Source of the DNA: Methanohalophilus portucalensis
GTDB taxonomy: Archaea > Halobacteriota > Methanosarcinia > Methanosarcinales > Methanosarcinaceae
NCBI RefSeq assembly: GCF_002761295.1
Contig: NZ_CP017881.1
Span: 248,001 to 312,000, forward strand
Length of the DNA: 64,000 bases
Reading direction: 5' to 3'
Each line of letters starts with the position of its first letter. The first letter of the stretch is position 1. Shown here piece by piece: positions 15,870-43,711 of this stretch. The position numbers and the translations under genes were made by a program. Below the pieces are notes generated by a model. It searched no databases. It had not been told where the DNA came from and saw only the letters and a list, made by a program, of their open reading frames with translations.

Positions 15870-16375
15870 TTCTTTTCCTCATTTATTTTCAATCTCTGGC
15901 CCATAACCGTTAACCCATTTGCTCTTCTTGCAAGGGATCTTATGTATAATGCACTTCTGTTGAGCTTACGTGTAAGAGCACTCATAGAATGGTTGCCACT
16001 TTCTACTTCCTTTTCAAGTTCTTCTATCAGATCTTTTATCTCTTCGTAAGGAGTGAATGTTAAAGTAATTATTTCACTGAGGTCGTCAAAAGAACACTGG
16101 AAATTCGCCTGTACTTTTGAATACGATGAGTGATATTCCTTATCCGGTTTCTCTCCAGGTTTGGGCATGCGCCACTGGCTTTCCAGTAACCCGCATTTCT
16201 GGAGTATATCGATACTTTCCTCTGTGTCAATTCCCATTTTTTCGTCAAGCTGGCCTTTTGTCATCCACTCTGAACTGAGTGCATTGAAGACATGTTTATG
16301 CTCCTTTGACCTGAATGTTTGTAGGAGGGGTACCATTTCAGATGGGTCGTTTATTATTCGGGTTCTCCTGGGCAT
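15866..16375 (-). CDS. ArsR-like winged-helix protein, methanogen-specific type
   Basis: The 169-residue protein has an N-terminal winged helix (HKHVFNALSSEWMTKGQLDE, IDTEESIDILQKCGLLES) followed by a WRMPKPGEKPDKEYHSSYSK segment and a helical C-terminus (ALTRKLNRSALYIRSLARRA) that could dimerise. I took ATG 16375 because GAGG lies 7 nt upstream; the GTG one codon earlier is possible. An inverted repeat overlaps this ribosome binding site. It heads a three-gene leftward operon with a second regulator and a phosphoesterase. Confidence 0.78.
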   Translation of the reverse strand: MPRRTRIINDPSEMVPLLQTFRSKEHKHVFNALSSEWMTKGQLDEKMGIDTEESIDILQKCGLLESQWRMPKPGEKPDKEYHSSYSKVQANFQCSFDDLSEIITLTFTPYEEIKDLIEELEKEVESGNHSMSALTRKLNRSALYIRSLARRANGLTVMGQRLKINEEKK

Positions 16376-16380
16376 CACAA

Positions 16381-16397
16381 AACCTCATATGTAGGTT
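16381..16397 (-). promoter_or_regulatory. Inverted repeat over the ribosome binding site of the regulator operon
   Basis: AACCT (16381-16385) and AGGTT (16393-16397) form a 5-bp dyad with a 7-nt centre. On the minus strand it contains the GAGGTT Shine-Dalgarno of the first gene. It could be an operator for autoregulation or an RNA hairpin hiding the site. Confidence 0.35.
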
Positions 16398-16555
16398 ATT
16401 GATTCGATTTAGAAAAGGTTAATACAGCTATACTAATATGGTCTTAAGATTAATAAATGTGTTGTAGTATTTGTATTGATACTTATCGCAGTTTTTCTTC
16501 ATACATCTATACCGTTACATTTATTCAATCCTGTTAACAATACTGTTCAGTTATT

Positions 16556-17161
16556 ATGACAGAGGCACTGTATTCTAAAATTTTCAGGTTGCTTGATAAC
16601 CAACAGCTTTCAATTAGTGGCATCACGAGAGACCTCAAATCAGAAGGTATTGATGAACATCGTTTGATCATGACCGGTTATTTGAGGGCACTGAGAGATC
16701 TGAAAAAACTTGATGAAATAGAGGTGCCTCCATCAAAGACCTATAAACTTTCAGATAACGTTGAGAAAGAAGAAGATAATATTTATTCTCTTATGGGCCA
16801 TCATCTGAAAGATGTTCCTGCATCCAAACGCATCTATGTAGCAATCTATGTATTTTCTTATCTGTTGGAAAGGCCAGTTTTCAGAGCTGAGTTAAAATCA
16901 ATGGGTTTTCATGAAAATACTATTATGGGTGCAGTGCAACAGGGCAATCCTATAATAGAAGTGCCTGAAAAAGATATTAGGCCTTTTCGTAATTCCATAA
17001 CGCGAATCACAATACCTTCAGTAGACCCAGCTTATGAGTTAAAAGTTGAAGATGATAGCTATCTTCAATATACTGGAGTAGTTCTTTTGCCGATACTCAA
17101 AGTTTTTGTAAATCTGGAAGGGCTGGTTCCCAAGACAAAACAGCTGAAATTGACTATGTAA
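16556..17161 (+). CDS. Uncharacterised winged-helix-like archaeal protein
   Basis: The 201-residue protein begins MTEALYSKIFRLLDNQQLSI and its first ~70 residues read as a winged helix (SISGITRDLKSEGIDEHRLI, GYLRALRDLKKLDEI, SKTYKL). The second part contains a RIYVAIYVFSYLLERPVFRA segment that could be a second helical DNA- or protein-binding unit, and a C-terminal part rich in valine and leucine. No enzyme motif is seen. It is divergently placed from the regulator operon, and no strong ribosome binding site precedes the ATG, so the mRNA may be leaderless. Confidence 0.7.
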   Translation: MTEALYSKIFRLLDNQQLSISGITRDLKSEGIDEHRLIMTGYLRALRDLKKLDEIEVPPSKTYKLSDNVEKEEDNIYSLMGHHLKDVPASKRIYVAIYVFSYLLERPVFRAELKSMGFHENTIMGAVQQGNPIIEVPEKDIRPFRNSITRITIPSVDPAYELKVEDDSYLQYTGVVLLPILKVFVNLEGLVPKTKQLKLTM

Positions 17162-17265
17162 TTGCTCGTCCAGTTTTTTTATTGAAGTCAATTATTTATC
17201 ATTCTTTCATTTCTTAATTCTTAGTATGTCTTTTACATCGACTTTTCCAAAATTCTATGTTACCC

Positions 17266-17291
17266 ATTTGGATAACATGTATTACCCAAAT
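17266..17291 (+). promoter_or_regulatory. Strong dyad upstream of the His-rich protein gene, candidate operator
   Basis: ATTTGG (17266-17271) and CCAAAT (17286-17291) form a dyad whose centre adds TAA/TTA (17273-17275 with 17282-17284), so 10 of 13 pairs are symmetric. A direct repeat TTACCCA occurs at 17260-17266 and 17282-17288, 22 bp apart, i.e. two helical turns. An AT-rich TATA-like stretch (about 17302-17315) follows at once. The geometry suits a dimeric regulator; a metal-responsive one is an inference from the genes behind it. Confidence 0.5.
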
Positions 17292-17372
17292 CCTTGTGTT
17301 TTTATTATAATATTTTGTATCACCAAGAGTTGTAAAACAAGTTTTGTTTAATATAACTCTAAAGGTGATTGT

Positions 17373-18536
17373 ATGAGATCTTTAAATGGAAAATATGGAA
17401 TACTTTTTGTATCATTTTTACTTGTCTTTTCGACATGTTTGACCGCAACGGCTCACGAATCTCACTCCGATGCTCCTCATGCCCTTGCTGATATTGAAGA
17501 GCATGCCGGTGAACTTGTTGAACTTTCCGATACTCTGCATGTTGACTCAGCCCGAATTGCAGATGATGAATCACTGGATGAAGATCTGCGTGCCACTGCC
17601 GAATCTGTTCATCTTTCCACCCATGATATGAAACATATCGGTGAACATATTCTCTCCCATGTGGAAACCCTCGAAGGCCTGTATTCCGACCCTGAAAACA
17701 ATGCAGATGAAATAAATTCCGAGATTGCAGCCATTGAATCTGAAATAGATGAACTCAAGGAACTAGTCAATTCCAACGCTGACGCTGTCCACACTGTTGA
17801 ATCCAATACTCCTGCTTCCCATCAGGAATATGCTGAATCCCTTCACGAAAATTTCCATGAGGTTGGACATATCGGCACCCATCTTGTAAAATACACGGAT
17901 GAACTTGGAGGTAGTGAATCCCATGTAGCTGACCATGACAGCTCCAATGCATTGATGGAAGTTAAAGAGCATGCCGGTGAACTTGTTGAACTTTCCGATA
18001 CTCTGCATGTTGACTCAGCCCGGATTGCAGACGATGAAGCACTGGATGAAGATCTGCGTGCCACTGCCGAATCTGTTCATCTTTCCACCCATGATATGAA
18101 ACATATCGGTGAACATATTCTCTCCCACGCGGAAACCCTCGAAGGCCTGTATTCCGACACTGAAAACAATGCAGATGAAATAAATTCCGAGATTGCAGCC
18201 ATTGAATCTGAAATAGATGAACTCAAGGAAATAGTCAATTCCAACGCTGACGCTGTCCACACTGTTGAATCCAATACTCCTGCCTCCCATCAGGAATATG
18301 CTGAATCCCTTCACGAAAATTTCCATGAGGTTGGACACATCGGCACCCATCTTGTAAAATACACGGATGAACTTGGAGGAAGTATGACAACGGAAGATTC
18401 TGCAACCACTGGTGAGGTATCTAATGAAGAACAAAGCGAACAGGAACCTTCCGCCACATCCAATCAGACACCTGGTTTTGGAATTTTGATGGCAGTATGT
18501 GGACTGCTTGCTGTAGGGTACTTAAAGAGACAGTAA
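17373..18536 (+). CDS. His-rich duplicated surface protein with PGF-CTERM anchor
   Basis: The 387-residue protein has a signal peptide (hydrophobic stretch ILFVSFLLVFS, cleavage probably after ATA, exposing HESH), two nearly identical ~140-residue helical repeats at about 42-181 and 198-337, an acidic Thr/Ser-rich linker, and a C-terminal PGFGILMAVCGLLAVGYLKR, the PGF-CTERM sorting signal cut by archaeosortase. Each repeat has about 13 histidines, many spaced as on one helix face (HLSTHDMKHIGEHILSH; LHENFHEVGHIGTH). It is followed by a Co/Ni ECF transporter, so extracellular capture of transition metal is a reasonable idea; no binding data exist here. A GGTGAT site precedes the ATG. Confidence 0.8.
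   Translation: MRSLNGKYGILFVSFLLVFSTCLTATAHESHSDAPHALADIEEHAGELVELSDTLHVDSARIADDESLDEDLRATAESVHLSTHDMKHIGEHILSHVETLEGLYSDPENNADEINSEIAAIESEIDELKELVNSNADAVHTVESNTPASHQEYAESLHENFHEVGHIGTHLVKYTDELGGSESHVADHDSSNALMEVKEHAGELVELSDTLHVDSARIADDEALDEDLRATAESVHLSTHDMKHIGEHILSHAETLEGLYSDTENNADEINSEIAAIESEIDELKEIVNSNADAVHTVESNTPASHQEYAESLHENFHEVGHIGTHLVKYTDELGGSMTTEDSATTGEVSNEEQSEQEPSATSNQTPGFGILMAVCGLLAVGYLKRQ
17497..17915 (+). repeat. Tandem repeat copy 1 inside the His-rich gene
   Basis: This 419-bp unit recurs 468 bp downstream with only about 11 base differences, several of them synonymous. Confidence 0.9.
17965..18383 (+). repeat. Tandem repeat copy 2 inside the His-rich gene
   Basis: Second copy of the 419-bp unit, about 97% identical to copy 1. 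The 468-bp offset is a multiple of three, so the frame is kept. Confidence 0.9.
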
Positions 18537-18551
18537 ACTTTCAGGAGGGTT

Positions 18552-18570
18552 ATAGGTATCTTTTACCTAT
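18552..18570 (+). terminator. Stem-loop between the His-rich gene and cbiM
   Basis: ATAGGTA (18552-18558) pairs with TACCTAT (18564-18570) over a 5-nt loop, followed by TCTCTCCTTCCC. It lies 15 nt after the stop and could reduce transcription into cbiM. Confidence 0.5.
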
Positions 18571-18614
18571 TCTCTCCTTCCCAAATATATGTTGATTCAG
18601 GAGTGAACTAAATA

Positions 18615-19235
18615 ATGCATATATCAGATGGTATCCTCTCCACCACTGCCATAAGCGGTGGCTGGGTTGTAACTATAGTCATAGCCATACTGTCTTTCTG
18701 GTGGAGGTATAGGGAAGTTGATGTGGTAGAAGAAATTCCTAAGTTTTCAGTAATGACAGCCGCATTTTTTGTTGCTTCTCTTATTCATATTCCCTTAGGG
18801 CCTACAAGCGTACATTTGATATTTAATGGTCTTGTTGGTGTGATTCTGGGTCCTCTTGCGTATGTTGCAATGTTGGTAGGTTTGACTTTACAGGCTTTCC
18901 TCTTCCAGCACGGTGGAGTAACAACCATTGGTGTCAATACTATGAATGTCGGAATCCCTGCCCTGTTGTGTTTTTACATTTTCAAGAAAGGGGTAGATTA
19001 CGGTTTATCTGAAAAAATAATTGGAGGCATAAGTGGAGGTCTAGCAGTTTTCTTTACTACAATACTTCTCTCTATAAGTTTGTTGACCACCGGCGAGGAA
19101 TTTTTAGGCGTAGCAGGAGTAGCCGCAGCAGCTCATTTGCCGGTAATGATCATTGAAGGAATCGTAACTGCTTCAGTAGTAACTTATCTGGCAAAAGTGA
19201 AACCCGAATTATTGCCTGTCAAATTGAATAAGTGA
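18615..19235 (+). CDS. cbiM: CbiM/NikM, substrate-binding membrane component of Co/Ni ECF transporter
   Basis: CbiM is the S component that binds Co2+ or Ni2+ for import. The 206-residue protein begins MHISDGIL, the invariant N-terminus in which the terminal amine and His2 help ligate the metal, and has about six or seven spans with LGPTSVHLIFNGLVG and FLFQHGGVTTIGVNT segments typical for the family. A GGAGTGAA site lies before the ATG. It is followed by an accessory gene, cbiQ and cbiO, completing one transporter. Cobalt and nickel cannot be told apart from sequence here; both are in demand in a methylotrophic methanogen (corrinoids, F430, hydrogenases). Confidence 0.92.
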   Translation: MHISDGILSTTAISGGWVVTIVIAILSFWWRYREVDVVEEIPKFSVMTAAFFVASLIHIPLGPTSVHLIFNGLVGVILGPLAYVAMLVGLTLQAFLFQHGGVTTIGVNTMNVGIPALLCFYIFKKGVDYGLSEKIIGGISGGLAVFFTTILLSISLLTTGEEFLGVAGVAAAAHLPVMIIEGIVTASVVTYLAKVKPELLPVKLNK

Positions 19236-19249
19236 AGAGTGTGATAAAA

Positions 19250-19735
19250 ATGAATTCTAGGTTCAAGCAAATTATGTTTTTTGTATTGGTATTATCTTTA
19301 ATATTAATGCCAGTCGCTTCAGCACATAGTGTCTTCATGGATGTAGTAGAAAAATCGGAGAGCAATATAAAGGTAAAGGCATATTATGGAGGCGATGATC
19401 CGATGAAGAATGCCGAGGTCACAGTTTATATCATTGATGAAAGCGGAGAAACCCTTTATATTGAAGATGTATCGACTGACACAGATGGCTTCTATTCCTT
19501 CAGTCCTGAAGAGGGTCAAGAGCAATACAGGGTAGTTGCTTCTGATTTTGGTCATAAGGCAGAAAAAGAAATAGATATAAGTAGTAAATCATCTACTCAC
19601 TCGTCATCAGGTACTTCTTCAAGTCTGCCATTGTCTGCCGGCATTGTTGCAGGTTTTGGATATCTTGCAGGTATTGCTGGTGTAGGAATGATGATAAGTG
19701 CCAGAAGAATGAAGAAGAAATACGAAGAAAAATAA
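19250..19735 (+). CDS. NikL/CbiN-like accessory protein of the metal ECF transporter
   Basis: The product (161 residues from ATG 19250; GTG 19232 overlapping the cbiM stop would add six) has a signal peptide ending near ASA, so the mature protein starts close to AHSVFMD with a histidine at its N-terminus. A small beta-sandwich like a carboxypeptidase regulatory domain follows (KNAEVTVYIIDESGETLY, DTDGFYSF, YRVVASDFGHKAEKEI), then a Ser-rich linker and a C-terminal span (IVAGFGYLAGIAGVGMMIS). This layout is like the NikL/CbiN small components found between the M and Q genes of Ni/Co transporters. The exact subfamily is not certain. Confidence 0.75.
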   Translation: MNSRFKQIMFFVLVLSLILMPVASAHSVFMDVVEKSESNIKVKAYYGGDDPMKNAEVTVYIIDESGETLYIEDVSTDTDGFYSFSPEEGQEQYRVVASDFGHKAEKEIDISSKSSTHSSSGTSSSLPLSAGIVAGFGYLAGIAGVGMMISARRMKKKYEEK

Positions 19736-19756
19736 TTGAATTTTGGGAGCAAAGGA

Positions 19757-20518
19757 ATGAATTATCCAAGGGTTGATGAGTATTCTGGAATAGAATCAAT
19801 AATACACAATTTTGATCCACGGGCCAAGATAATTACATTTACAACCCTTATCTTTTCCTTTGTTTTTATTGAAAATATTTCGTTGGCAATATTAGCTATA
19901 TTGTTTTCAATTATTCTTGTGTCACTAGCAAAATTACCACCAGAATTCGTATATAGGCACCTAAAGTATCCTGTTCTATTTCTGTTTTCGATTTTTTTTG
20001 TAATGGCTTTCACAATTAAAGGAAATGACATTCTAAATTTACCCCTCGTAGATTTAACTTTTGAGGGGGTATATCTTGGATCTTTGATATTTTTTAGAGG
20101 CGTTGCAGCTTTATTACTTGCATTTTTGATATTTTCAACAAGCAGATTTGATGCAATAATCAAAGCTATTTATATGATGAAACTGCCCAATGTCTTTGTC
20201 CAGATGATTGCTTTTTCTTATCGGTATATATTTGTAATTATTGATGAATTCCAGAACATGAAAAAGGCACTTTCATCGAAAGGGTTTGTCTTTGGACTCA
20301 ATCAATATAGTTTATCTTTAATAGGAAATATGATTGGAGGATTGCTTATAAGGAGCTATGAACGGGGAGATCGAGTTCACAGTTCCATGGTTTCCAAAGG
20401 TTATGGCGGTGCTCAACAATTGTTTTTCGAATATAATATGAAGCTAAAGGATTATACTATGGGCATCTCATTTATTGTAATAGCTCTTTTATTCCATATT
20501 TATCCGGTGATTCTATGA
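19757..20518 (+). CDS. cbiQ: CbiQ, transmembrane coupling component of Co/Ni ECF transporter
   Basis: CbiQ is the T component that couples ATP hydrolysis by CbiO to metal movement through CbiM. The 253-residue protein has about five to six spans and, in its cytoplasmic part, two Ala-Arg-Gly-like coupling motifs reduced here to ALSSKGF and MVSKGYGG, which contact the ATPase. ATG 19757 follows GGGAG with 7 nt; a TTG 21 nt upstream lacks a site. The last 4 nt overlap the cbiO start (ATGA). Confidence 0.9.
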   Translation: MNYPRVDEYSGIESIIHNFDPRAKIITFTTLIFSFVFIENISLAILAILFSIILVSLAKLPPEFVYRHLKYPVLFLFSIFFVMAFTIKGNDILNLPLVDLTFEGVYLGSLIFFRGVAALLLAFLIFSTSRFDAIIKAIYMMKLPNVFVQMIAFSYRYIFVIIDEFQNMKKALSSKGFVFGLNQYSLSLIGNMIGGLLIRSYERGDRVHSSMVSKGYGGAQQLFFEYNMKLKDYTMGISFIVIALLFHIYPVIL

Positions 20519-21432
20519 AAAAAGAAGCAATATGCATATCCAAACTAGAGTATTCATATCCGGATGGGAAAAAAGCATTGAATAATGTTAATATGAAGAT
20601 ATTTGAAGGTGAAAAAGTTACCATAATGGGTCCAAATGGTGCTGGAAAAACCACGCTTTTATTAAATATAAATGGGACGGTGAAAACCCCTTCCCCCTCT
20701 GTATCGATATTCGATAAATCTATTTCTTCAATGGATATTGTAGAAAGGATTCAAAATGTGGGTGTGGTATTTGAAGATCCCGATGACCAGCTCTTTATGC
20801 CGACTGTTTATGATGATGTAGCTTTTGGCCCCGCAAATATGGGACTGGATAAGGATGAAGTGGATAAAAGGGTAAAAAATGCTCTTTTAAGGGTAGGAAT
20901 GGAAGATTTTGAGCAATATGTCCCCCACCATCTGAGTAGTGGGCAAAAGAAAAAGGTAGCATTGGCTGCAGTTCTATCAATGGAACCTAAAATTATAGTG
21001 CTTGATGAACCCACAGCAAACCTGGATCCCAGAAGTAAATCAGAATTGATCAATTTACTTGAAAAACTTAATCAAGATAAACAAACGACTATTATCACTG
21101 TAACTCATGATGTAAATACAATCTCCCGGCTTGCTGACAGGATATATGTATTGAATCAAACAGTGGTTGCTGAAGGTACTCCTTATGAAATATTCTCTGA
21201 CAAGGAATTGTTAGCAGCACAAAATCTAGAATCGCCTGACACTCTGCAGTTATTTTATATGTTAGCACACCTTGGTTATAGTTGTAACCAACATCCGTTG
21301 TCTGTGAATGAGGCCGCAGAAAATCTTATTTGCACAATGCAGCAAAATAATAATTTGATTCAATTGAATATGAATAGTTCTGCTTATGAAAACATAAAAG
21401 AGCTTACAAAATTACAGACGGATAATGATTAA
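20515..21432 (+). CDS. cbiO: CbiO, ATPase of Co/Ni ECF transporter
   Basis: CbiO powers metal uptake. The 305-residue ABC ATPase has Walker A GPNGAGKTT (residues 39-47), a Q-loop region VFEDPDDQLFMPTVYDDV, the signature LSSGQKKK, Walker B IIVLDEPTANLDP and the switch histidine in VTHDVNT. The ~60 residues beyond the ABC core form a C-terminal extension typical of ECF ATPases. It overlaps cbiQ by 4 nt and ends the operon; leuS converges from the other side, 33 nt away. Confidence 0.94.
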   Translation: MKKEAICISKLEYSYPDGKKALNNVNMKIFEGEKVTIMGPNGAGKTTLLLNINGTVKTPSPSVSIFDKSISSMDIVERIQNVGVVFEDPDDQLFMPTVYDDVAFGPANMGLDKDEVDKRVKNALLRVGMEDFEQYVPHHLSSGQKKKVALAAVLSMEPKIIVLDEPTANLDPRSKSELINLLEKLNQDKQTTIITVTHDVNTISRLADRIYVLNQTVVAEGTPYEIFSDKELLAAQNLESPDTLQLFYMLAHLGYSCNQHPLSVNEAAENLICTMQQNNNLIQLNMNSSAYENIKELTKLQTDND

Positions 21433-21465
21433 TATATTTAACCAATACCCGTCTGATTTCCCATA

Positions 21466-24357
21466 TCATTCAAGATAGATAGCCGGCCTCATTGGTGCTG
21501 CAAAGCGGGCTTTCTTTTCGGGATCATACGTCTCTTCTCCTTCCCTGGTGATCTGCACTTCACAACCAATTTCCTTTTCAAAGAAACTTATTGCTTCTTT
21601 CAGTGTTTCTTTTTCGTCCAGGTTGAAACCGCATACCATCTCGAATTTATCTTCTTTCATGGCTTTTATGTCATCAACAACTTTCTTTGCAAATTTTGGT
21701 ACTTCTTTTCCATAAGGTCTCATTTCGGGGTCCTGCATGAGTTTCTTTATGAGAATTCCCGGGTTGAGATCTCCCTGTAGCTGGAGTTCAAGAGCCTGCT
21801 TAAAAGCTTCTGATTTCCATTGGGAGGCTGTATAGAGGACAAGTTTTTGCGGCTTTATACCGGTGACTTTTATTATTTCCTCAACATCTGAAAAAGTGTT
21901 GCTGATCAGCTCTTCTGCAGCTTCGGCATCCCTGTCTATAAATTGCGGGTCATACTCTGGATATTTTTCCAGGGATACATAACCTTGCGTTTCTTCCATT
22001 TCACTCCAGATTTCCTCACATATGTGGGGAGTGAAAGGTGCCATCAGGCGCACCCATGTATCGAGTATATCATACTGGAGGGTCTTTCCTCCTCTTCTCT
22101 GATACCATTTCACATCATTAAGAAGCAGGAAGAAAGAATTCTGTAGGGCCTGCCGGGTACGTATACTTTTAAGTGCCTCGTTTGTCTCACTGATACGTTG
22201 CTGCAGGCGGCTCTGTATCCACCTATCTATCAATTGTTTTTCCTTACAGGCTCCAGAGGTACATTTGGTATCGATAGTATCTTTTGCAAAATGGTAGAAC
22301 CTGTCCACCTGTCTCCTGGCAGACTCGATACCACTGTTCTTCCAGTCAGCATCCTGTGTCTGTTCTGCACTGGACAGGATATACATCCTGGAAATATCCG
22401 CACCATAATCTTTCACTGCCTCACTGAGTGTTAGCAGTGGTCCCTTGGACTTACTCATTTTCTGTCCTTCAAGAGATACAAAACCATTGATTGCAATGGC
22501 ACGAGGCCAGTTCTCTTCTCCGAATATCGCAACATGATGGAAAAGGAAGAACAGGAGATGGTTTGGTATCAGATCTTTTCCTGAGGACCTGAGATTGACG
22601 GGATACCAGTAATTGAAATCCTCTCGCATGCTTTCAATTACAGAGGCATCAATTCCACTTCTTTCTGCTGCATACTGCACACTTCCCTTTCCAAGAAGCA
22701 CATGATCAAAGAGTTCGGGCACCAGTTGCTCGGTCTTAATATCTTCACTGAGAAACTTTGCAACTATGTAGTAAGACATGTATACCGTGGAATCTCCCAG
22801 GGATTCGATCAACCAGTCCTTATCAAAGGGCAGGCGTGTTCCGAGTCCTTTTTTACGGGCGCAGGCCTTGTCTTTTAGCCAGTCAACCTTATTATTGAAC
22901 TCTACCCTCAGTTCTTCGGGAATTATATCCATATTCTCTATACAGCGGTATACTTTATCCTTCCATTCAGGATTGGAATAATTGAGGAACCACTGGCCCT
23001 TAACCATGTTTACTACACATGGAGTTCCACAGCGGCAGACCACAGGTTCACTGAATTCATAGAATATCTCACCGATTTTCTCATCGATCAAATCCTGTGT
23101 AAGAAGATCCTTTATCTTTGAGACCTTCGTGCCTGCATATTTCCCGGTATTCTCTTTCAGGGTACCTCCGTGGAATTCCCGCCGATATACCATCTTTGTT
23201 GCAGATTCGGCCTTTGGATCATCCTGATCCTGTACTCCAAATTCCTCTACCGCTTCAACTGCCGGATACTCTCCGTATTCAGGAACATCGATAAGAGGTA
23301 TGAGCTGGATATTCTGGAGATTTTCTGTAATACCGTATTCTGAAAGATCTTTATCATAAAGGTCCTTCAGGGCCAGATAATCATAAGGCGCATGTGCGGG
23401 CACACTCATCACAACTCCGCTTCCGTTACCTCCCCTGACAAAAGATGCCGGCAGGGTGATTACTTCCGAGTCTGTCAACGGGTTTTTGACCTTTATTCCG
23501 ATGATGTCCAGGCCACTTATTTTCTCTATGAATTCGACTCTACGATCTGTGTAGGTAAGTTTGTTGTATGCTTCTTCACTTACAATCCAGGTCTCTTCAT
23601 ACTCGTCGGTTTTCACTTTCGCCTTGACATATTCCACATCAGGGTTTATCCAGAGGTTGGTGACCCCGAATGTGGTTTCCGGACGCAGGGTAGCACAGGG
23701 TAATACCATTCCATCATAGGTGAATTTGATCAGGGTATAATCCACGATAGTGGCTTCTTCTCCCCTGAGGATGTCATGGTCTTCCACAGGATTGTCATCA
23801 TTGGGGCACCATTTGACAGGATGTGAACCTTTTACAATCAGTCCCTTTTCGTAAAGCAGATTGTATTGCCATTCGATAAATTTTTTATATGTTTCATCGG
23901 TTGTAGTGAACTTTCTTCTCCAATCAATGGAATATCCAATGGATCGCATGGCTTTTTCTGCTTCCACACTGAAATATTCCACGATTTTTTCCGGAGAATC
24001 AAGTCCTTCGAGGATATCCTTCGGGATGCCGTGGAACTTAGAATAGACTTCCATCGTCTGAGGTTCCCTGTTTGTGATTAGTTCGGCAAGTCCTACAATG
24101 GGTGTACCGGTTACGTGGAATCCCATCGGGTAGAGTACATTGTATCCCTGCATCCTCTTGTGCCTTGCAATAACGTCCCCGATGGTGAAGGTCCTGGTAT
24201 GGCCTGCATGCAGATTCCCATTGAGATATGGGTAGGGAATAGTTATGAAATATTTATCCCGGCTGTCAGGTTCGGCCTCGAATACTTTGTCCTGAGACCA
24301 TATATTTTGCCACCTTTTTTCAATGGTTGCAGGTTTGTAGTTCTGTTCCATTATCAT
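21466..24357 (-). CDS. leuS: Leucyl-tRNA synthetase, archaeal type
   Basis: LeuRS charges tRNA-Leu. The 963-residue protein has the class I motifs HAGH (residues 50-53, the HIGH box) and KMSKS (in EGQKMSKSKGP), a large CP1 editing insertion with a VVMSVPAHAPYDY segment, and the C-terminal domains of archaeal/eukaryotic LeuRS. ATG 24357 or ATG 24351 (two codons later, better spaced from GAGGGG) may be the start. It lies 6 nt after thrC on the same strand, so leucine-tRNA charging and threonine synthesis share an operon here. Confidence 0.96.
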   Translation of the reverse strand: MIMEQNYKPATIEKRWQNIWSQDKVFEAEPDSRDKYFITIPYPYLNGNLHAGHTRTFTIGDVIARHKRMQGYNVLYPMGFHVTGTPIVGLAELITNREPQTMEVYSKFHGIPKDILEGLDSPEKIVEYFSVEAEKAMRSIGYSIDWRRKFTTTDETYKKFIEWQYNLLYEKGLIVKGSHPVKWCPNDDNPVEDHDILRGEEATIVDYTLIKFTYDGMVLPCATLRPETTFGVTNLWINPDVEYVKAKVKTDEYEETWIVSEEAYNKLTYTDRRVEFIEKISGLDIIGIKVKNPLTDSEVITLPASFVRGGNGSGVVMSVPAHAPYDYLALKDLYDKDLSEYGITENLQNIQLIPLIDVPEYGEYPAVEAVEEFGVQDQDDPKAESATKMVYRREFHGGTLKENTGKYAGTKVSKIKDLLTQDLIDEKIGEIFYEFSEPVVCRCGTPCVVNMVKGQWFLNYSNPEWKDKVYRCIENMDIIPEELRVEFNNKVDWLKDKACARKKGLGTRLPFDKDWLIESLGDSTVYMSYYIVAKFLSEDIKTEQLVPELFDHVLLGKGSVQYAAERSGIDASVIESMREDFNYWYPVNLRSSGKDLIPNHLLFFLFHHVAIFGEENWPRAIAINGFVSLEGQKMSKSKGPLLTLSEAVKDYGADISRMYILSSAEQTQDADWKNSGIESARRQVDRFYHFAKDTIDTKCTSGACKEKQLIDRWIQSRLQQRISETNEALKSIRTRQALQNSFFLLLNDVKWYQRRGGKTLQYDILDTWVRLMAPFTPHICEEIWSEMEETQGYVSLEKYPEYDPQFIDRDAEAAEELISNTFSDVEEIIKVTGIKPQKLVLYTASQWKSEAFKQALELQLQGDLNPGILIKKLMQDPEMRPYGKEVPKFAKKVVDDIKAMKEDKFEMVCGFNLDEKETLKEAISFFEKEIGCEVQITREGEETYDPEKKARFAAPMRPAIYLE

Positions 24358-43195: not shown

Positions 43196-43711
43196 ATGAG
43201 TTCAATGGGATGCAGGATTTTTCATGCACTTGGTAGTGAAACCCGGATTAAAATACTGGAACTCTTAAGCAGCAACGAAATGCATATATCTGAAATTGCC
43301 CGGGAGCTGGATATTTCAGTACCGGTAATTTCCAAGCATGTAAAGGTGCTTGAAGAATCCGAACTTCTTGAAAGGCATGTTTTCGGTAAATCCCACGTAT
43401 TAAAACCCAACAGGAAAAATATCCATCTGGCCGTTGATTCGTTTGCTCCCACCAGGCATGTGGAAGTCGAGAAAGGTGCTTCCCTTATGGAAGCCCTGCG
43501 CAATGTGGCAGATATTGATGTCAGGAAAAAGGGGGATAGGGAGATGATTGTTTCTACTGATGGGGAGGAAGGCCTTTTTGTCTATGAGATTGATGGCCAA
43601 TTCGGGGATAAAAACGTGAATGACTGCGTGCTGGAAGATGATACAATCGTGGACTGGAAAAAGCTGGAACCTATCACACGGATTCGGCTTGACATCCATG
43701 TCAGGGAATGA
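43196..43711 (+). CDS. ArsR-family regulator with C-terminal beta-grasp-like domain
   Basis: The 171-residue protein begins with an ArsR winged helix (FHALGSETRIKILELLS, HISEIARELDISVPVISKHV, LEESELLERH), followed by a linker and a C-terminal region (GLFVYEIDGQFGDKN, DCVLEDDTIVDWKKLEP) that resembles small beta-grasp/DUF4430-like domains. A TATA box TTTATATA (43165-43172) lies about 25-30 nt before the ATG, so the transcript is probably leaderless. No metal-binding cysteine pair is visible in the helix, so the signal is unlikely to be arsenic. It precedes the repair operon by 69 nt and is a candidate regulator of it. Confidence 0.83.
   Translation: MSSMGCRIFHALGSETRIKILELLSSNEMHISEIARELDISVPVISKHVKVLEESELLERHVFGKSHVLKPNRKNIHLAVDSFAPTRHVEVEKGASLMEALRNVADIDVRKKGDREMIVSTDGEEGLFVYEIDGQFGDKNVNDCVLEDDTIVDWKKLEPITRIRLDIHVRE

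Follow-up and report, generated by a model that had tools for sequence, protein, structure and literature searches.

The window analysed here is a stretch of 64,000 nucleotides (G000:C1:248001-312000) from a complete archaeal genome of 2.08 Mb. On its plus strand, the ORF at 17373..18536 encodes a protein of 387 aa which, from ORF analysis, Pfam, homologue searches and AlphaFold, we describe as a secreted and anchored His-bundle protein, a name coined for this product and abbreviated HBP. Read by eye, the precursor starts with a probable signal peptide (residues 1-27, 17373..17453, plus strand) ending in ..ATA/HESHSD, where the slash marks the junction, and mature HBP likely begins with a histidine, His28. 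An AxA-H-like junction was read in 14 of 17 HBP, 26 of 27 NikK and 46 of 47 NikL sequences, cleavage being a prediction for HBP. At the other end, residues 366-386 (18468..18530, plus strand) form a PGF-CTERM surface anchor, which scores 32.1 bits against a curated Pfam cut-off of 18.8 and, with NCBIfam TIGR04126, 23.8, slightly below the cut-off of 24.5. Histidine makes up 8.0% of the residues (31 in all), against a median of 1.9% and a next highest value of 4.4% among 61 ORFs of the window, and HxxxH pairs number 15, where 10,000 shuffled sequences average 2.4 and none reaches 15. The only two cysteines lie within the signal and anchor segments. Apart from PGF-CTERM, no curated domain of Pfam or NCBIfam covers HBP; matches to coiled-coil proteins in Pfam and the PDB (Cluap1, SKA1, SMC, coronavirus S2) were dismissed as a product of helical-repeat composition, and Rfam gave zero matches over 16000-22000.

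Between signal and anchor, repeat analysis and AlphaFold delimit two units on the plus strand, each predicted to be a four-helix bundle: unit 1 (residues 36-179, 17478..17909) with 14 His and unit 2 (residues 192-335, 17946..18377) with 13. The sequence-only reading had described a secreted PGF-CTERM protein with two His-rich repeats of no named family; this description stands, with units of 144 residues, and the lack of a named family holds for Pfam and NCBIfam. The units recur with a period of 156 aa (468 nt) and are 97% identical across 300 nt, and a 21-nt repeat at an exact spacing of 234 nt suggests an inner duplication of about 78 aa in each. Homologues carry from one unit (L046) up to three (L047, L049). 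In the genus g9, which we take to be Methanohalobium, the two units within one HBP are much more similar to each other than units compared across genera; this likeness within a protein, seen also in the HBP of the window, suggests that unit copies are kept uniform. HBPs of the Methanococcoides type have first units without the second set of histidines. Across 25 unit rows, AlphaFold modelled the unit as a four-helix bundle with a mean pLDDT of 97.4, and the full-length model places bundles at residues 34-177 and 190-337, followed by a disordered stalk (about 338-369) and the anchor helix. The histidines at unit positions 21, 45, 49, 105, 123 and 127 are conserved in 88-100% of these rows, 45/49 and 123/127 forming HxxxH pairs. 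All six point 90-164 degrees away from the hydrophobic moment of their helices, towards a groove or the surface, and are thus predicted from the sequence to lie outside the hydrophobic core. The same angles disfavour a buried binding site, so exchangeable capture sites would fit better than a buried catalytic one. A search of the PDB with the unit returned generic four-helix bundles only (best E 0.03).

Downstream on the same strand follow four genes of an energy-coupling factor (ECF) metal importer: cbiM/nikM, the S component (18615..19235; Pfam PF01891, E 3e-52); a NikL-like subunit (19232..19735; NF058648, E 1e-14, under the curated cut-off) in which a signal peptide, a predicted mature N-terminal His and a C-terminal membrane helix were read by eye; cbiQ, the T component (19736..20518; TIGR02454, E 2e-37, over the cut-off); and cbiO, the ATPase (20515..21432; TIGR04520, E 6e-77, below the cut-off of that model, and Pfam ABC_tran, 3e-30, over its own). 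HBP and cbiM are 78 nt apart and the later genes are separated by 0-4 nt or overlap. Pfam and NCBIfam thus bear out the position claimed for the gene, directly upstream of cbiM-(nikL-like)-cbiQ-cbiO on a shared strand, and the operon has the CbiM/NikM, NikL, CbiQ and CbiO components of an M-L-Q-O importer, the NikL-like one below its curated cut-off. This cbiM is the third in the genome, which holds three ECF metal systems: cbiM-cbiN-cbiQ-cbiO, adjoining cbiD/cbiE in the order cbiD-cbiE-cbiM-cbiN-cbiQ-cbiO; NikK-nikM-nikL-cbiQ(-cbiO); and HBP-cbiM-nikL-cbiQ-cbiO. The sole CbiN lies at G000:C1:2022024, away from the HBP operon. CbiM of the HBP operon is closer to the nickel-type NikM encoded in this genome, with 59% identity, than to its cobalt CbiM.

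The whole operon is present or absent as a unit. On the left it is bordered by an uncharacterised gene of 201 aa (16556..17161, plus strand) and on the right by a gene for a LeuRS-like aminoacyl-tRNA synthetase, assigned by eye (21466..24357, minus strand). Five genomes of this genus, all without HBP, have the two border genes joined, only tens of bases apart, where the window holds a block of 4.1 kb. Within the genus, HBP and cbiM-nikL-cbiQ-cbiO are present or missing as one block. Four genera show both states, with at least three CbiM in all 10 HBP-positive genomes and two in all 15 HBP-negative ones.

We then asked where else HBP is found. Homologues turned up in several families when 186 genomes from the order and 393 from the phylum were searched; 40 of the homologues were read with their surroundings, a set that leaves out some weaker matches (in f3 and f4, for example). 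A genome-wide scan with the single HBP protein gave no confirmed relative; 25 rows shared no sufficiently conserved pattern, and with five rows the scan gave five loci, all in Methanosarcinaceae. Homologues do not lie mainly away from metal transporters: 25 of the 40 adjoin cbiM-nikL, 18 within the family and 7 in other families. Among the other 15, two lie among feoA/feoB genes; single homologues were seen next to cobS and a cobY-like gene, close to a CobW-like GTPase, and in the vicinity of a weak DUF4198-like gene. The two Feo cases are HBP-like proteins of another family (L098:5641-6369, L099:5875-7155) inside feoA-feoB groups with split GTPase and membrane parts, which suggests a use for ferrous iron. 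With some 15 of 40 homologues elsewhere, two of them beside Feo iron transporters, the family may not be cobalt-specific. Bundles like those of HBP were also seen, by eye, fused to beta-propeller-like repeats and an N-terminal FmdE-like part (L085, L086, L093), and divergent relatives with another repeat spacing (the MGKAEVVHGVSHDI motif), fewer histidines and unrelated neighbours occur at L053:223-1284, L054:2877-3956 and L100:5914-6960. Such fusions of homologous domains to other modules, together with the designed heme/metal four-helix bundles among the closest PDB folds (all E > 0.02), could be read as signs of a non-metal or broader surface role, as an S-layer spacer or in heme or corrinoid binding by bis-His bundles, co-opted beside transporters. 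We give this very little credence, since the position before cbiM is conserved across several families, the copies found next to Feo and cobalamin genes indicate a link with metals, and the conserved histidines face outward where a buried heme site needs them facing the core.

The position of HBP is shared with a known protein. In 49 loci of the family with a CbiM like that of the window, the gene before cbiM encodes HBP in 18 and NikK in 26; of the remainder, one locus is cut by a contig end, three have an orphan cbiM, and in one neither protein precedes a complete operon. One of the 18 HBP loci, L178, has an additional NikK-NikL pair further upstream. The orphan genes (L171, L180, L189) lack nikL, cbiQ and cbiO, cluster together on the CbiM tree and come from genomes in which an HBP system is present as well. 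On that tree the HBP and NikK labels require at least two and at least three changes, respectively, on well-supported branches; some of the branches that set the two labels apart are weak, and a very distant outgroup was used. NikK of the window genome is a DUF4198 protein (E 6e-29) with a PGF-CTERM anchor, encoded before the sister cbiM-nikL-cbiQ operon. DUF4198 (PF10670) is absent among the listed Pfam matches of HBP, which is, as NikK is, a secreted protein encoded beside nikM/nikL. A bacterial DUF4198 protein is secreted and binds Ni with a Kd of 18 nM via its N-terminal His (PMC12537917). A 2009 survey placed NikK/NikL systems in bacteria and, in archaea, only NikMN types (PMC2667541). 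The NikK-MLQO operons found here, such as that of L002:2207-3196 in Methanosarcinaceae with its PGF-CTERM-anchored NikK, extend this survey, and HBP-MLQO adds a further type. They also mean that the pairing of a surface metal catcher with an ECF importer is, contrary to the earlier proposal, no novelty for methanogens, because the window genome itself has an anchored NikK before its sister operon. The rest of that proposal, a surface metal collector feeding the importer, is well supported by the conserved linkage to cbiM, the joint presence and absence, the conserved exposed histidines and the replacement of NikK. The high histidine load, the amplification from one to three units and the copies away from importers would also suit a protective sponge, which sequesters surplus metal at the surface and does not feed the importer. 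We hold this to be improbable, if slightly less so than a non-metal role, given the tight co-gain with the import operon, the slot common to NikK and the finding that no efflux genes were recognised in the HBP neighbourhoods read.

Which metal HBP serves was approached from gene context. Firstly, in three Methanosalsum genomes HBP-cbiM-nikL-cbiQ sits between cbiD-cbiE and cbiO, the position of cbiM-cbiN-cbiQ in the window genome, and CbiN was not detected in any of the three (one complete, one 98% complete). Secondly, in two other families HBP follows cbiD-cbiE within cobalamin operons, with HBP and cbiM downstream of cobalamin methyltransferase genes at L088 and L089. Thirdly, locus comparison revealed a palindromic dyad, TTACCCATTTGGATAA (17260..17275), a candidate operator about 100 nt before the HBP start. 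Allowing up to one mismatch, TTANCCANNTGGNTAA is present in 8 of 18 HBP loci (the other 10 are without it) and in none of the remaining 31 loci with this type of cbiM, every NikK operon included. About 115 nt before cbiM-cbiN, the TTACCCATTTGGATAA dyad recurs in both genomes of one related genus, as an identical copy in G103 and as a copy with a single mismatch in G104; it is absent from the cbiM-cbiN operon of the window genome. The Methanosalsum replacement, the cobalamin context of L088 and L089, and the presence of the dyad before cbiM-cbiN but not in NikK operons make cobalt, as far as gene context can tell, the likelier metal of the HBP system. Cobalt is not proven for the copy in the window, because that genome also has CbiMNQO, whose operon is without the dyad. 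Against cobalt, the CbiM and NikL-like subunits of the HBP operon resemble the nickel type. In Methanohalophilus-type genomes the same mechanism could thus serve nickel, giving the cell another nickel system alongside NikK-MLQO, whose type these subunits share, cobalt being already provided for by CbiMNQO. HBP systems in cobalamin loci, the replacement of CbiM-N-Q in Methanosalsum and a dyad that a related genus has before cbiM-cbiN and that no NikK operon shares all speak for cobalt, and we consider nickel unlikely. An ArsR-type regulator is encoded in the window (43196-43711) and at L207:726-1271, and in g9 a close ArsR-type paralogue lies directly before HBP, itself preceded by a second copy of the dyad. 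The ArsR-type protein is a candidate regulator of the dyad, and only a lead, since all 19 genomes searched contain homologues, whether or not they carry HBP. A match of the regulator to DUF4430 (E 0.005-0.01) fell under the cut-off and was discounted.

We therefore favour, with fair confidence, the reading in which HBP is an extracellular subunit that captures Co2+ and hands it over to NikL/CbiM; binding, the identity of the metal and transfer are all inferred, and the fold is predicted by AlphaFold. HBP would be exported and stay tethered to the cell surface by its PGF-CTERM anchor, and a flexible stalk of about 30 residues would carry its two rigid four-helix bundles outside the cell. HxxxH pairs on their outer faces, probably with the N-terminal His, would loosely bind divalent cobalt from dilute surroundings. 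The bound cobalt would raise the local concentration near NikL and CbiM, both of which would also present N-terminal His sites, and CbiQ/CbiO would then power its uptake for cobalamin synthesis. HBP would so occupy the slot held in sister operons by the nickel-binding NikK (DUF4198). A broader reading has, to our mind, about an even chance: that HBP stands for a hitherto undescribed family of archaeal proteins that catch cobalt while anchored at the surface, with HBP-M-L-Q-O as an additional type of ECF importer for cobalt, carried on a mobile cassette of five genes, exchanging its slot with the unrelated NikK, replacing CbiM-CbiN-CbiQ in the Methanosalsum cobalamin locus, controlled by its own cobalt/cobalamin operator, and with side branches serving Feo iron importers.

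Methanogens growing on methyl compounds have a high cobalt demand for their corrinoid methyltransferases, and HBP bears on how ECF importers are supplied with cobalt from nanomolar surroundings across the archaeal surface layer. It also shows that one presumed capture subunit outside the cell can take the place of another with an unrelated fold, perhaps together with the metal. As close relatives exist without the five-gene cassette and others with NikK instead, a capture role is directly testable.

The libraries and literature searched held neither the HBP family nor its His-laddered four-helix bundles, the exchange with NikK or the probable use of cobalt, and no literature on CbiM with PGF-CTERM was found. 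Several known systems are nonetheless close. NikK (DUF4198, PF10670; NikKMLQO) is, like HBP, secreted, encoded directly before the M-L-Q-O genes, anchored by PGF-CTERM in these archaea and likely to carry a mature N-terminal His; it is a beta-sandwich, whereas HBP is predicted to consist of helices only, carries ladders of histidines and shows no detectable similarity to DUF4198. The CbiMNQO cobalt importers share CbiM, CbiQ and CbiO and, in several genomes, the cobalamin gene context, but they have CbiN, where the HBP operon carries HBP and a NikL-like subunit. The anglerases Ang-1 and Ang-2 are N-terminal-His proteins of metal permeases (PMC12537917). They are proposed to pick up extracellular metal and hand it to the permease, as we propose for HBP; Ang-1, however, is fused to a HupE/UreJ permease, while HBP belongs to an ECF system, is anchored and predicted to be helical, and is encoded by a gene of its own, without a permease domain. 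Finally, the Csp copper storage proteins are also four-helix bundles with many metal-ligand side chains; they bind Cu(I) through cysteines lining the core, in contrast to the predicted bundles of HBP, whose histidines face outward and whose units contain no cysteine. Proteins that capture metal outside the cell as partners of an importer are a kind already known, and what is probably new here is the HBP protein family with its probable role in cobalt capture.
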